Made by a program: the position numbers and the translations under genes. DNA of 5,060 nucleotides from Deltaproteobacteria bacterium RIFOXYA12_FULL_61_11 (GTDB lineage Bacteria; Bdellovibrionota_F; JAHFAK01; YA12-FULL-61-11), in contig MGSU01000329.1 of NCBI GenBank assembly GCA_001799195.1, positions 1 through 5,060 on the forward strand, given 5' to 3'. Below, piece after piece: positions 1,145 through 5,060 of this stretch (position 1 is the stretch's first letter; each line of letters opens with the position of its first letter). Below the pieces are notes generated by a model. The model did no database searches, was not told where the DNA came from, and worked only from the letters and a program-made list of their open reading frames with translations.

Positions 1145-2056
1145 TCAGCCTTCTGTCTGGAGTACCGACATGACGCAGTTCCGGCCGCCGTTCTTGGCCT
1201 TGTAGAGGTAAGCGTCGGCGGCTTCGATCATCTCCTCGCACGTCTCGAAACGCTGTTTGTTCAGGGTGGCGATACCCACGCTGATGGTGACGGAGAAGAC
1301 CGTGGCCTGCCATTGGAAGACGTGGTTCTCGATGGTTCTGCGCATCCGGTCGGAGAAGATGAAGGCCTGCTTCTCGTTGATCCCCCGCAATAAAAGGGTG
1401 AACTCCTCTCCGCCGTAGCGAGAGAAGACATCCTCGATGCGGATGATGCGGCGGACCAGGTCAGAGATCGAGCGCAGCACGAAATCGCCGACCGGGTGCC
1501 CATAGGTGTCATTGATCTTTTTGAAATGGTCGACATCGAAGAGCACCATGGACAGGCAGGTGCGATGACGATTGGCGAAGGTCAGTTCGCTCTTGATGCG
1601 CTCGAGGAAGTACTTGCGGTTGTAAATCTTGGTCAGGCCGTCCTTGGTCGCGCTGTCGTAGAGATGTTTCTGGAAATTCTCCTCCAATTCATCCTGGTAA
1701 GTGAACTTGAGGATGGTGGTATCTCCGAGGCGTATCTTGTCCCCGTCGCTGACCTGGTGCATCCCGGTGACCTTCTTTTCGTTGACGAAGGTGCCGTTGG
1801 TGCTGTTGAGGTCCTGGAGGTAGAGGCCGCTCTTGACCGTGCTCAACTTCGCATGGCTGCGCGAGATCGAGGGGTCCTCGATGCAGATGTCGGCCTCGCG
1901 GGTCCGACCGATCAGCCATTCGGTACCCGTGAGTTTGTACATCATGCCCACCGCATTGCCGGTGAGCACGATGAGGCAGGGCTCGCCGGCATGGTTCGGT
2001 CCGCGACCCCTCTCTTTCTCGTTGAAGATCGTCTTCTCGGTGCGTTCGGGTTCCAT
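1145..2056 (-). CDS. FHA-GGDEF diguanylate cyclase, second copy
   Basis: 303 residues; makes c-di-GMP from two GTP in the cytoplasm. The FHA domain (about 27-118) keeps the phosphothreonine-binding signature: G50-R51, S65-R66-S67-H68 and N84-S-T-N-G-T89. A short charged helix ([14 protein letters not shown], 121-134) links to the GGDEF domain (about 135-298). That domain has [11 protein letters not shown] (173-183, metal-binding D174 and the Asn/Asp substrate residues), the active site RYGGEEF (213-219) and the RIED inhibitory site (206-209) five residues upstream, so product feedback inhibition is expected. The C-terminal [13 protein letters not shown] motif is intact. There is no signal peptide or membrane segment, so input is probably phosphoprotein binding through FHA. 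T9 in EKTI is a candidate phosphosite. The start is ATG 2056 with GAGG 9 bases upstream; 45 bases separate it from the preceding paralogue, consistent with one operon. No terminator is seen after the stop. Its cognate kinase is not in the window. Confidence 0.95.
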
Positions 2057-2078
2057 GTCTTCTCGCCTCGATACCGAT

Positions 2079-2091
2079 GGGGCCTCGCCCC
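2079..2091 (-). other. Short GC hairpin between the two FHA-GGDEF genes
   Basis: On the transcribed strand GGGGC-GAG-GCCCC forms a 5-bp stem with a 3-base loop inside the 45-base gap between the cyclase genes. It has no U-run. It could mark an RNA-processing or attenuation point that sets different levels for the two cyclases, or it may be chance. Confidence 0.25.
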
Positions 2092-2101
2092 TGGGAATAC
2101 G

Positions 2102-3034
2102 TCACCCCGCAGGACAGTTCAAGCTGCTACAGACGCGATTGCGACCGCCCTGTTTTGCTTTGTAGAGATAGTCATCCGCGGCTTTGAGCACGGCCGAGGC
2201 ATCCTGGTAACGGCCAGCGCACTGCGTCGCCACGCCGATGCTGATGGTCACGGGGATGGACGTGCCCTCATGGACGAACGAATGCCCCTCAATGGCACGC
2301 CGCACGCGATCGCTGAACTGGTGTGCCTTCGTCTCCTCGATCCCTCGCAGGAGCATGACGAATTCTTCCCCACCGTACCTGGCGAAACAATCTTCTTGGC
2401 GAATGATCTTCTTGATGCCCGCGGCCAGGGTTTTGAGCACGTAATCGCCGGCAGGATGCCCATGCGTGTCGTTGACCTTCTTGAAATGGTCGACGTCCAT
2501 CATGAGCAAACTGAAGATGCTGCCGTGCCGGGTGGCGAAGGTCATCTCGGAGTCGAGCCGTTCCATGAAAAAGCGCTTGTTGTTGATCTGGGTCAAGAAA
2601 TCCCTGGTCGCGTTCTCGTAGAGTTGCCGTTGGAAGTTCTCCTCCAATTCGTCCTGGAAGGAGTATTTGACGTATTGCGAGGTCCCGAAGCGGAGCCGGT
2701 CGCCCTCGACGAGAGCACAGGGCGTGTCGTCGAGGCGCCGGTCGTTGACGAAGGTGCCGTTCGTGCTGTTATTGTCCCTCAGGATATAGCCGTCCTCGAC
2801 CTGTTCGATCCATGCGTGCACCCTCGAGACGGTGGGATCGTCGATGGGGATGTCGTTCTCGGCGTCGCGTCCGAGGGAGACCTTCGGATTCTCGACGATG
2901 AGGATGCGTCCGGTCATGCGGCCGGACAGGAAGATCAGCGACGGTTTGGCTTTCTTGCGCAAGGTCCTCCCGACCTTCGCCTGCTCGGAGCTGACGATAA
3001 TGGTCTTCTCGTTCTCCCACTCTTCGATGCCCAT
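2102..3034 (-). CDS. FHA-GGDEF diguanylate cyclase, first copy
   Basis: 310 residues; same architecture and predicted reaction (2 GTP to c-di-GMP) as the gene at 1145-2056. FHA domain about 31-125: G55-R56, S70-R71-x-H73, N89-S-T-N-G-T94. Linker helix [14 protein letters not shown] (127-140). GGDEF domain about 141-305 with MDVDHFKKVND (179-189), active site RYGGEEF (219-225), RQED inhibitory site (212-215) and DDYLYKAKQGGRN near the end. All catalytic residues are present. T11 in EKTI lies in a disordered-looking N-terminal tail of about 30 residues. The start is ATG 3034: AAGGGG (3046-3041) sits 6 bases upstream, and the ATG shares its A with the TGA of the metallo-hydrolase gene. That implies translational coupling. 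An open frame extends upstream to 3127, but it overlaps the preceding gene and has no FHA-like sequence. More than half of the GGDEF residues match the downstream paralogue by eye, so this is a tandem duplication that has since diverged. Confidence 0.95.
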   Translation of the reverse strand: MGIEEWENEKTIIVSSEQAKVGRTLRKKAKPSLIFLSGRMTGRILIVENPKVSLGRDAENDIPIDDPTVSRVHAWIEQVEDGYILRDNNSTNGTFVNDRRLDDTPCALVEGDRLRFGTSQYVKYSFQDELEENFQRQLYENATRDFLTQINNKRFFMERLDSEMTFATRHGSIFSLLMMDVDHFKKVNDTHGHPAGDYVLKTLAAGIKKIIRQEDCFARYGGEEFVMLLRGIEETKAHQFSDRVRRAIEGHSFVHEGTSIPVTISIGVATQCAGRYQDASAVLKAADDYLYKAKQGGRNRVCSSLNCPAG

Positions 3035-3825
3035 CACCGTCCCCTTCGTTCCTTGATAGGATCCATGCTGTCCGCAGCCTCTTCTGCAAGAAATAGTCTG
3101 GTCAGGTCTTCGGCCTCCACGAACCAATCGAGCTCCGCGAATCTGGGCTTGAGCTCATAGTCGTCCATCACCGGGTACCGGTGGGTCAGGAGCAGCCGCT
3201 TGCAACCCGAGCGGTCGACCAACTCGCGCACAGCCGCAGGAGTAAGATGGTTCGGGACTCCCTTCCCGTCCGGGAAGGAGCACTCGCATATCGCCAGTTC
3301 GACCCCGGCTGCTCGACGCACCAATTCGTCATGCAAGCCGGTATCCCCGCTGTAGAGCAGCCGCCGCCCCTCGAAGACCAGCACCGCGGACAGCGCTTCG
3401 GGAGTATGGATCGCCGAGAACGGTTCTACCTCGACGCAGGCCAGAACGTGGCGTTGTCCGGGGAGCAGTTCCTCCACCACGAGCGGTCGTGCCGGATCGA
3501 GCGAGGAGCCGTAGATCGCGCGCATACCGTCGAGATGGGCGCCAAGACCTCTCGGTCCGAGCAGGTGCAGGGGGCGCTCAGAGGGGGTGGCGTTGTGCAG
3601 GGCGAATAGCAGGGTTGCGAGGTCATGCACGTGGTCGAGATGGAGGTGAGAGAGGAAGACGGCCTCGAGCTGGTCGAGTTCGAGCCCTGCTCGGGCGTAC
3701 TTGCCGAGAGCCCCGGGACCGAAGTCCAGGGCTACGGTATGTTTGTCCCCGGCCAAGACGAGGCCCGAGGCGTGACGGCTGGGGTGCGGTACTGCCGTTC
3801 CTGCCCCGAGTACGATGATCTCCAC
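3034..3825 (-). CDS. Metallo-beta-lactamase-fold hydrolase (RNase Z-like superfamily)
   Basis: 263 residues, probably cytoplasmic; a two-metal hydrolase with unknown substrate. It opens with the typical strand and loop of the fold (EIIVLGAGTAVPHPSRHASG, 2-21). It carries HLHLDH (60-65, metal ligands H60, H62, D64, H65), H140, the bridging aspartate in YSGDTG (D161) and the final histidine in LLLTHRYP (H215). NHLTP (192-196) is the usual lead-in to the last motif. The order of motifs is that of the RNase Z/arylsulfatase-like branch, but the long exosite arm expected of true tRNase Z is not evident, so the function is left open. The GTG start at 3825 is chosen because AAGGAG lies exactly 6 bases upstream and the fold begins at once. 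An open frame running back to 4002 would add 59 residues unlike the family, partly encoded by the inserted element. The stop overlaps the start of the FHA-GGDEF gene by one base, which suggests co-translation. Confidence 0.9.
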   Translation of the reverse strand: MEIIVLGAGTAVPHPSRHASGLVLAGDKHTVALDFGPGALGKYARAGLELDQLEAVFLSHLHLDHVHDLATLLFALHNATPSERPLHLLGPRGLGAHLDGMRAIYGSSLDPARPLVVEELLPGQRHVLACVEVEPFSAIHTPEALSAVLVFEGRRLLYSGDTGLHDELVRRAAGVELAICECSFPDGKGVPNHLTPAAVRELVDRSGCKRLLLTHRYPVMDDYELKPRFAELDWFVEAEDLTRLFLAEEAADSMDPIKERRGR

Positions 3826-3837: not shown

Positions 3838-3890
3838 ACCCGACGGATGAGGTCGGCGGCTCCCGACCACACCCTCTTCCTGTAGCTTCT

Positions 3891-3919
3891 TCCATAGCGC
3901 AGCGGCCGTGGTATGTAAA
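3891..3919 (-). promoter_or_regulatory. Weak candidate promoter for the metallo-hydrolase/FHA-GGDEF operon
   Basis: On the minus strand TTTACA (3919-3914, 5/6 to the -35 consensus) is followed by 17 bases and TATGGA (3896-3891, only TAT of the -10 matches). It lies downstream of the inserted element and about 65 bases before the GTG start. The spacing is ideal but the -10 is poor, so this is tentative. Confidence 0.25.
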
Positions 3920-3930
3920 CGAGGAAGGAG

Positions 3931-3939
3931 CCCGGACGG
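3931..3939. repeat. Left copy of 9-base target-site duplication
   Basis: CCCGGACGG directly abuts the left terminal repeat; an identical copy is at 4195-4203. The match stops exactly at 9 bases on both sides. Confidence 0.7.
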
Positions 3940-3957
3940 GTAAGCATTCAGTCTTGG
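3940..3957 (+). repeat. Left terminal inverted repeat
   Basis: GTAAGCATTCAGTCTTGG. It is 15/18 identical to the reverse complement of 4177-4194, and the inner 11 bases TTCAGTCTTGG (3947-3957) are perfect. Confidence 0.75.
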
Positions 3958-4021
3958 TTGGGGTAAGGGGTCCTGTCGCCTCTCACCCCGACGCCACTGC
4001 ATCCTGCGCGGCGCTGGAGGT

Positions 4022-4035
4022 CCGCATCCTTGCGG
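4022..4035. repeat. Small hairpin inside the element
   Basis: CCGCA (4022-4026) and TGCGG (4031-4035) form a 5-bp stem with the loop TCCT. This contains one of three copies of a GCATCCT(T)GC motif in the element. Confidence 0.4.
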
Positions 4036-4037
4036 TC

Positions 4038-4073
4038 ACCCCCACCATGCTCATGCTTGCGCGTGGCGGGGGT
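4038..4073. repeat. Imperfect 13-base stem-loop inside the element
   Basis: ACCCCCACCATGC (4038-4050) pairs with GCGTGGCGGGGGT (4061-4073) across a 10-base loop. There are 11 Watson-Crick pairs and one T-G wobble, leaving a single A-C mismatch. No U-tract follows on either strand, so it is not a standard intrinsic terminator. Confidence 0.6.
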
Positions 4074-4084
4074 CCCCCGTCGGC

Positions 4085-4129
4085 GCCACCACCGTTGCTC
4101 TCTGCATCCTGCAGCAACGGTAGGTCGGC
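4085..4129. repeat. Long stem-loop inside the element
   Basis: A perfect 9-bp stem, ACCGTTGCT (4091-4099) with AGCAACGGT (4113-4121), encloses a 13-base loop containing GCATCCTGC. The stem continues outward for six more pairs (GCC-ACC with GGT-GGC) with single-base bulges at 4122 and 4126. This is the strongest secondary structure in the window. Confidence 0.65.
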
Positions 4130-4176
4130 TTCCCTGCCGCCACCCCAATGTGGTGATAAACAACCTGCATTGTACC

Positions 4177-4194
4177 CCAAGACTGAAGGGATAC
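4177..4194 (-). repeat. Right terminal inverted repeat
   Basis: Read on the minus strand as GTATCCCTTCAGTCTTGG, it mirrors the left end. The three mismatches all fall in positions 4-7. Confidence 0.75.
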
Positions 4195-4203
4195 CCCGGA
4201 CGG
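4195..4203. repeat. Right copy of 9-base target-site duplication
   Basis: CCCGGACGG lies between the right terminal repeat and the stop codon of the lhgO-like gene (4204-4206). The insertion therefore fell immediately 3' of that gene without altering its reading frame. Confidence 0.7.
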
Positions 4204-5060
4204 TCACCAGATAATATGGTCGACCACATGGCGGGAGAACGAGAACGAGCAGGTGAAGGCCGGACTGACCGCATTGAGGACATGGGTCGAACGGGGCCGG
4301 TATTCCACGGCGAAGTCCATCACCAGGGTCGAGGTGCTGCGATCGAGGAGTTGGGCCCTAATACCCGCGGGCATGGGTTCGAAACCGCCGGGCAGGGAGT
4401 GCACCAGACGCCGCGCGTCGGTCTCGAGTACACCGCGCTGGTACTTGCGCAATTCTCGCATGGCCAGAGCGCGGAAACCGAAGGCGTTGCGCCACCACAA
4501 CCGGGAGTAATCGCCCAGAACCTCCCCGAGGTCCTGAGCCGAGAAGCGCTGCAGCCCCTGATACTGCTCCCTCCAGAATCCGGGTATGGCGGTCGGCCCG
4601 ATCTTGACCGCGCCGTCTGCCATCTTGGTGAAATGCACCCCGAGGAAGGGATTGACGAGGTCCGGCACCGGATAGACGTTGGTGGAGAGCTCGGCGGGAT
4701 CGCCGGTGTAACGGTAATAGACGCCCTTGAAGGGGAGGACCGTGTAGTTCCTGCCCACTCCGAGTTGATGGGCCACGCGATCAGCATGGAGCCCCGCGGC
4801 GTTGATCAGGTGTCCACAGACGATCGAGCGGGTGGGGGTGAGGACGCGTTCGCCGAGGATTCTCAAGAGCGGTTCGCGGAACAAGAAGGTTGCGCCCCGG
4901 GCCTCGAGGTCCTCGCGCAGGGTCTTGCAGACCTCTTTCGGGGCCACGGTCGCCGTGGCCGGCGAGAAGAGGGCCTGGCCCACGGTGCGGGCGTTCGGCT
5001 CGATGTCGCGGAGCTGTTGTTCGTCGATCAGTTCGACTTCGACACCGTTCGCCGCCCCCC
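4204..5060 (-). CDS. FAD-dependent oxidoreductase, L-2-hydroxyglutarate oxidase-like; N-terminus outside window
   Basis: 284 C-terminal residues are visible; the frame is open to the right edge, so the first roughly 100 residues with the GxGxxG FAD-binding loop are missing. The family (DAO fold, LhgO/L2HGDH) oxidises L-2-hydroxyglutarate to 2-oxoglutarate, with electrons going to FAD and on to the quinone pool or oxygen. Matching features are the LIDEQQLRDIEPNA stretch near the right edge, LINAAGLHADRVA (about 84-96 of the visible part), LPFKGVYYRY (108-117), YPVPDLVNPFLGVHFTKM (129-146), GPTAIPGFWREQY (154-166) and MPAGIRAQLLD (229-239) before the final FAD/substrate-binding strands (NAVSPAFT). 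A GTG at 4983 is internal, since the upstream codons continue the family sequence. The protein ends soon after the last conserved helix. The exact substrate is inferred; a related 2-hydroxyacid oxidase is possible. The stop abuts the 9-base duplication of the inserted element. Confidence 0.85.
   Translation of the reverse strand, partial: GAANGVEVELIDEQQLRDIEPNARTVGQALFSPATATVAPKEVCKTLREDLEARGATFLFREPLLRILGERVLTPTRSIVCGHLINAAGLHADRVAHQLGVGRNYTVLPFKGVYYRYTGDPAELSTNVYPVPDLVNPFLGVHFTKMADGAVKIGPTAIPGFWREQYQGLQRFSAQDLGEVLGDYSRLWWRNAFGFRALAMRELRKYQRGVLETDARRLVHSLPGGFEPMPAGIRAQLLDRSTSTLVMDFAVEYRPRSTHVLNAVSPAFTCSFSFSRHVVDHIIW

Follow-up and report, generated by a model that had tools for sequence, protein, structure and literature searches.

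A modular bacterial MITE with REP-like units and insertions spaced relative to predicted promoters

The marked stretch at positions 3931–4203 of the window (the whole 5,060-nucleotide stretch of DNA that was analyzed) is a genuine mobile element, a bacterial MITE, and its mobility is well supported. We interpret it as a DDE-type MITE that is mobilized in trans, with insertions aimed at promoters and a modular build that incorporates REP-like units, and we assign this reading a probability of roughly 0.85. The family was studied in one genome without close relatives, a 4.64-Mb draft that consists of 342 contigs and is 87% complete.

The window copy comprises 255 bp (3940–4194) and lies between exact 9-bp CCCGGACGG repeats. 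Its 18-bp terminal inverted repeats (TIRs) are identical at 15 of 18 positions (GTAAGCATTCAGTCTTGG versus the reverse complement of GTATCCCTTCAGTCTTGG). A preliminary description of this DNA had already reported these inverted repeats and the exact 9-bp duplication, both of which are confirmed in the sequence at 3931–4203, and had claimed that the element has no coding capacity. Indeed, no coding capacity is evident inside the window copy, and the ORF list contains only short, mechanical ORFs there. The window copy and its target-site duplications (TSDs) are organized as follows:

3931–3939, no strand: left target-site duplication CCCGGACGG (from the sequence and the TSD statistics over 71 copies)
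3940–3957, plus strand: left terminal inverted repeat GTAAGCATTCAGTCTTGG (from the sequence, the end counts and the copy alignment)
3958–3966, plus strand: left spacer, weakly conserved between copies (columns 19–26 with a mean of 30% minor letters)
3967–3987, plus strand: 5′ part of the conserved structured core (GGGGTCCTGTCGCC TCTCACC)
3988–4040, plus strand: module A, a 53-bp double hairpin with loops GCATCCTGC and GCATCCTTGC and joiner CTGGAGGT; its ends are ambiguous by 2–3 bp in the window copy
4041–4090, plus strand: 3′ part of the conserved core with the apical hairpin CCCACCATGCTCATGCTTGCGCGTGGCGGGGGTCCCCCGTCGGCGCCACC, the loop of which is site B, empty in the window copy
4091–4144, plus strand: module C, a 54-bp double hairpin that is near-identical to a unit in the Y1 transposase gene at G000:C194
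4145–4176, plus strand: end of the core and right spacer, weakly conserved
4177–4194, plus strand: right terminal inverted repeat CCAAGACTGAAGGGATAC
4195–4203, no strand: right target-site duplication CCCGGACGG (from the sequence and the TSD statistics)

When the element was compared with its own genome, BLAST returned 61 matches. The core motif CCACCATGCTCATNCTTGC is present at 89 places, versus none for the reversed control, and the TTCAGTCTTGG end (with at most one mismatch) occurs 194 times versus 29 times for its reversed control. At least 88 distinct core copies are found at unrelated sites. A TSD score of at least 7 was reached by 21 of the 71 testable copies, versus 0.03% of 6243 mispaired flank pairs. 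The high-scoring direct repeats typically comprise 8–10 exact bp, and the window copy and copy L016 each show an exact 9-bp TSD. About half of the copies are without a convincing TSD (decayed or recombined). Comparison of the flanks between copies revealed no similar pair. Taken together, these counts far exceed chance expectation. The combination of unrelated flanks and target duplications demonstrates independent insertions of a transposing element. Several features that define a MITE are present, namely a short sequence (<500 bp) without a transposase gene, TIRs, a TSD, and multiple dispersed copies.

These data substantiate the MITE-like element with target duplication proposed in the preliminary description. 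The opposite case considered there, a non-mobile region with homology across both boundaries or with no other genomic copies, fails because the genome contains many copies and because their homology does not extend past the proposed boundaries. The full element has no copy in 59 genomes, among which only a 34-bp chance match was detected, and none in IMG/VR, plasmids, and phages. G001, a genome of the same class, possesses neither the element nor the neighbor gene. A GTDB contig match in Prevotella (L038) was rejected as a copy, as it covers only 21 bases and the remainder of the element is absent.

Two observations concern variation within the family. At L029:1–335 (G000:C32), two elements of different subfamilies are located side by side, and the second lies between ACCGGGAAGG duplications that arose within or beside the first. 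One subfamily (L054, L113, L119, L126, L138, and L105) features extended ends of the form GTAAGCCTTCAG-n-AGTTCAGTTTTGG, with a joint change of the two inverted repeats (TTCAGTTTTGG/CCAAAACTGAA).

The ends of the family read GTANNCNTTCAGTCTTGG. A DDE-type transposase would recognize these ∼18-bp ends and insert the element with an 8–9 bp staggered cut. The preliminary description had pointed to a transposase gene with the same ends as a test, and here the search came back empty in the 87%-complete draft. Such a partner is no strict requirement, as for many MITEs none is known. Neither the one IS66 gene nor any of the five DDE_Tnp_1 genes carries the element ends, and there is no gene of the Transposase_mut/IS256 type. 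The ORFs beside solitary TTCAGTCTTGG ends encode radical SAM, AbiE, response regulator, LUD, and lactamase-fold proteins and no transposase.

IS66 elements possess ends that begin with GTAA or GTAT and produce 8-bp TSDs. An IS66-derived MITE would accordingly share with our element the GTAA/GTAT ends and the many TSDs of 8 bp, and the genome does contain an IS66 transposase gene. GTA...TAC ends are common among the copies. However, the surroundings of the single IS66 gene (C91) are without TTCAGTCTTGG ends, and the TSD, although 8 bp in some copies, is exactly 9 bp in others, including the window copy and L016, which makes an IS66 origin doubtful. Close to this IS66 gene, the sequence GTATACATTCAG was considered as an IS end and discarded, being a single copy with no partner end. 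At L136:1614–3636 (G000:C91), the IS66 transposase gene adjoins a DDE_Tnp_1 gene at the contig end.

The most conserved part of the element is its inner ∼74 bp, which span GGGGTCCTGTCGC...GCGCCACCCC and are near-invariant. In the alignment of 71 copies, columns 28–99 show a mean of 0.8% minor letters outside seven variable sites, the corresponding means being 26–30% for the spacers and about 8% for the inner portion of the ends. One covarying pair, GTC[G/A]CC with GG[C/T]GCC, is represented by 26 G-C and 17 A-U combinations and is never broken (0 cases). Most other core pairs never vary and are thus uninformative on pairing. The window copy folds better than shuffled sequences on either strand (z −6.3 and −5.1). 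A search of Rfam gave nothing above chance. The possibility that the core is coding was also considered. Most substitutions occupy a single codon phase (147/54/21), yet this bias is caused by five sites, and a coding core was not accepted, many copies having an in-frame TAA just upstream and lacking a conserved start.

Diverged homologues of the core were found in an unrelated genome, G286, where they are not bounded by the ends of this family (at least three full and two partial copies in 342 kb). The cores from both genomes fold into nested hairpins that resemble each other, and the upper stem has changed on each of its two sides. As the core occurs in G286 without the MITE ends, its fold either predates the MITE termini or can be separated from them. 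Core homologues with other termini are located at L195:237–318, L197:1501–1576, and L198 (minus strand, 18411–18520), and in L231 (2306–2105, minus strand) the core is split by ∼115 bp near the apical hairpin.

The commonest form of the element measures ∼148 bp and consists of an end, a short spacer, the structured core, a second spacer, and the other end. Longer forms are explained by three fixed sites, each of which holds zero or one double-hairpin unit of 53–54 bp. Site A precedes the core hairpin (+53/54 bp), site B lies in the apical loop (+54 bp), and site C follows immediately after GCGCCACC (+54 bp). No module is present in 44 copies, whereas 18 carry A, 6 carry A and B, 3 carry B alone, 1 carries A and C (the window copy), and at least 1 carries B and C; copies outside these counts are incomplete. 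On a tree built from the module-free part, 16 state changes fall on A and 9 on B, indicating that modules were gained, lost, or exchanged many times. Copy L106 carries an A/B fusion, and in the chimera L060 the left end of the element is joined to the 3′ end of a Y1 gene; both favor recombination between copies as the probable route. In this picture, the units sit in loops or junctions of a structured ∼74-bp core, at three sites, and have moved between element lineages many times, most likely via recombination between copies.

Each unit is built from two hairpins with loops like GCATCCTGC and GCATCCyTGC and a joiner that reads TGGAGGT or GGTAGGT. The modules thereby contain a REP-type tag, GGAGGT or GTAGGT, followed by an xGCATCCyTGCx palindrome. 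Matching 54-bp double-hairpin units occur in frame inside Y1 (RAYT-like) transposase genes, in the region encoding the C-terminal tail. The Y1_Tnp gene at C194 carries two such 54-bp units in tandem, an extra 36 codons ahead of its terminal KKD*, which are missing from related genes. Units in Y1 genes were seen at L083:2160–2298 (G000:C194) and also at L090, L092, L093, L095, L099, and L101; in L093 and L099 they are apparently near the N terminus. The unit-bearing genes score above the cut-off of the Pfam model Y1_Tnp and below that of the NCBIfam RAYT model (30 versus 80 bits). Genome-wide, ∼20 loci outside the MITEs carry a unit, many solitary extragenic copies were not seen, and 377 kb of other contigs contain none. 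This scarcity outside MITEs and Y1 genes characterizes the units as REP-like and tied to Y1 genes, rather than as a classical high-copy REP family.

The shared units raise the question of whether the element itself derives from Y1 (RAYT-like) transposase genes rather than from a DDE transposon, with the REP-like units as its own ancestral sequence. Modules common to the element and the tails of Y1 genes, the L060 chimera, and the core itself, which repeats the pattern GG[AG]GGT-hairpin-GCCACC, are in line with such a descent. HUH/Y1 transposition is not known to make target duplications, whereas the element has clear 8–10 bp duplications and long inverted ends. Moreover, 44 copies are without a module, and the tree shows modules coming and going. 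We consider a Y1 origin very improbable and retain the DDE-type MITE as the vehicle of the REP-like units.

A second property of the family is the spacing of its insertions relative to promoters, which were predicted from the sigma70-like consensus, with gene starts taken from a home-made codon-usage gene finder. This spacing is statistically strong. When the best sigma70-like promoter was picked for each element from its two flanks together, its −35 box lay 18–20 bp outside an element end in 37 of 69 copies, whereas shuffled flanks gave a mean of 5.4 and a maximum of 11 in 300 trials. The peak is 2–3 bp wide (24 of 69 at offset 19 and 11 of 69 at offset 20), with background beyond. Scoring the boxes separately, TTGAC (at least 4 of 5) is found at offset 20 outward in 20 of 156 flanks against a background of 1.7 per offset, and TATAAT (at least 5 of 6) at 43–44 in 9 flanks against a background of 0.36 per offset. 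Together, these two peaks describe a sigma70 promoter whose boxes are 17 bp apart, and even flanks with a weak −35 match retain the −10 enrichment. The peak is also present in copies with clear TSDs and at both ends of the element (left 16, right 12). About half of the copies show no recognizable promoter at the fixed distance.

The distribution of complete copies over intergenic gaps is likewise skewed: divergent, codirectional, and convergent gaps contain 33, 28, and 2 copies versus 20.5, 35.6, and 6.9 expected from intergenic space (p = 0.0017). An outward promoter carried by the element is ruled out, because the −35 and −10 peaks fall outside the element. Paralogous duplication of flanks is excluded as a source of the peak by the lack of similar flank pairs. 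A literature search for promoter-directed bacterial insertion elements yielded nothing comparable, which is weak evidence of absence.

The cause of the spacing is probably targeting. The observed spacing puts the insertion point at about −55 of the promoter, which is also where the upstream edge of RNA polymerase lies. The transposition complex may recognize promoters, in the simplest case either by docking at this edge of the polymerase footprint or by reading promoter DNA. Alternatively, the spacing might be a trace of selection, with closer insertions lost and crowded gaps leaving only a strip just upstream of the −35 box. In favor of selection, copies are rarely closer than 60 bp to a start codon, the intergenic gaps themselves are short, and codirectional copies show an even spread across the strip open to them (their position in the gap does not differ from uniform, p = 0.24). 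Selection alone, however, predicts a sharp near edge followed by a broad upstream tail, in contrast to the 2–3 bp peak that drops to background. The absence of a promoter excess further upstream counts against simple purifying selection, and we regard this explanation as unlikely.

The copies could also be domesticated regulatory parts, with the core acting as a fixed upstream activator site or RNA and being retained near promoters for its usefulness. A near-invariant core with a covarying pair, a similar fold in G286, the strong folding of the window copy, and the position at about −55 would all agree with domestication. Both ends, however, face promoters about equally and thus show no fixed orientation, flanks and modules vary freely, and TSDs are still readable in many copies. 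Domestication therefore appears quite improbable, and targeted insertion remains the preferred explanation for the spacing.

The surroundings of the window copy illustrate this arrangement, with the following genes and predicted promoter boxes:

4204–5058, minus strand: FAD-dependent oxidoreductase, L-2-hydroxyglutarate oxidase (LhgO)-like; upstream gene, the stop of which adjoins the TSD
3034–3825, minus strand: metallo-β-lactamase fold hydrolase, RNase Z/cyclic-nucleotide phosphodiesterase-like; downstream gene, below NCBIfam cut-offs
3914–3919, minus strand: predicted −35 box TTTACA, starting 20 bp outside the left end of the element (score 8 at offset 20; consensus only)
3891–3896, minus strand: predicted −10 box TATGGA, 17 bp from the −35 box (consensus only)

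From the stop of the lhgO-like gene (4204) to the GTG predicted as the start of the hydrolase gene (3825), the intergenic distance is 378 bp. Subtracting the element and one TSD copy leaves the 114 bases that the preliminary description had given as the gene distance. The hydrolase gene heads a series that also includes two FHA-GGDEF genes and a sigma-70 factor. The two FHA-GGDEF diguanylate cyclase genes (1145–3052, minus strand) are adjacent to each other, between the hydrolase gene and the sigma-70 factor, and apparently represent a tandem duplication. According to the consensus prediction, transcription of the hydrolase/GGDEF operon would start near 3884, placing the element at about −56. 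The window copy probably leaves the operon's own promoter intact, and it may form a folded barrier between this promoter and lhgO transcription, with partial insulation likely. The preliminary description had suggested an influence on read-through into the c-di-GMP operon, which is plausible, but the position at about −56 of the predicted operon promoter is more informative. The modular build, the REP-like units, the conserved core, and the promoter spacing go beyond that description.

More broadly, the family could be a DDE transposon family whose transposition complex is guided to active sigma70 promoters, so that insertion takes place where the RNA polymerase footprint ends upstream, at about −55, and the promoter stays working, with a core fold shared across distant bacterial lineages. 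We put this wider proposal forward only tentatively, at somewhat less than even odds. If true, the family would be a bacterial counterpart of promoter-targeting retrotransposons, and its fixed, non-destructive landing beside promoters would reveal an uncomplicated strategy by which a bacterial mobile element reaches sites that are both safe and useful for transcription. The insertion preference would then have a testable target, either RNA polymerase or promoter DNA. The family also unites two classes of small repeats that are usually kept apart, the MITE with TIRs and TSDs and the RAYT-associated hairpin unit, and its invariant core, of which an unrelated genome contains a diverged homologue, suggests a folded repeat that is absent from Rfam.

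Among known systems, the Tf1 retrotransposon of fission yeast inserts at a preferred distance upstream of promoters. Our element resembles Tf1 in this preference, whereas Tf1 is a eukaryotic retrotransposon with no shared parts. The in-frame units in Y1 genes resemble the Rickettsia palindromic elements in coding genes.

Like our element, QMITE2 of Coxiella burnetii is a MITE (150–190 bp) with long TIRs, 7–11 bp TSDs, a strong fold, and an internal GTAG-type REP palindrome (PMC5896051). It carries one REP, whereas our element offers three fixed sites for optional 54-bp units, and, compared by description, it is mainly 3′ untranslated or intergenic, in contrast to the position upstream of promoters seen here (PMC5896051). 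BOX elements of Streptococcus are likewise interspersed and foldable, with TIRs, TSDs, and optional modules (PMC3049150). In BOX, however, boxB is repeated in tandem at one place and the elements are enriched between convergent genes, whereas here each of three sites takes at most one unit and convergent gaps are avoided.

The units share with REP/BIME sequences and their RAYTs the tagged hairpins (GGAGG/GTAGG, then a palindrome) and the association with Y1 transposase genes (PMC2817692, PMC3733652), and REPs inside other palindromes and within genes have already been recorded. In contrast to REP/RAYT systems, our units are rare outside MITEs and Y1 genes and form part of the Y1 reading frames, and the Y1 proteins score 30 bits, less than the 80 that NCBI sets as its RAYT cut-off. 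Correia, ERIC, RUP, and other bacterial MITEs are also intergenic, with TIRs, TSDs, and stable folds (reviewed in PMC10969869). Correia elements are often found upstream of genes and act through internal promoters (PMC10969869), whereas here the promoter lies outside, at a fixed 18–20 bp.
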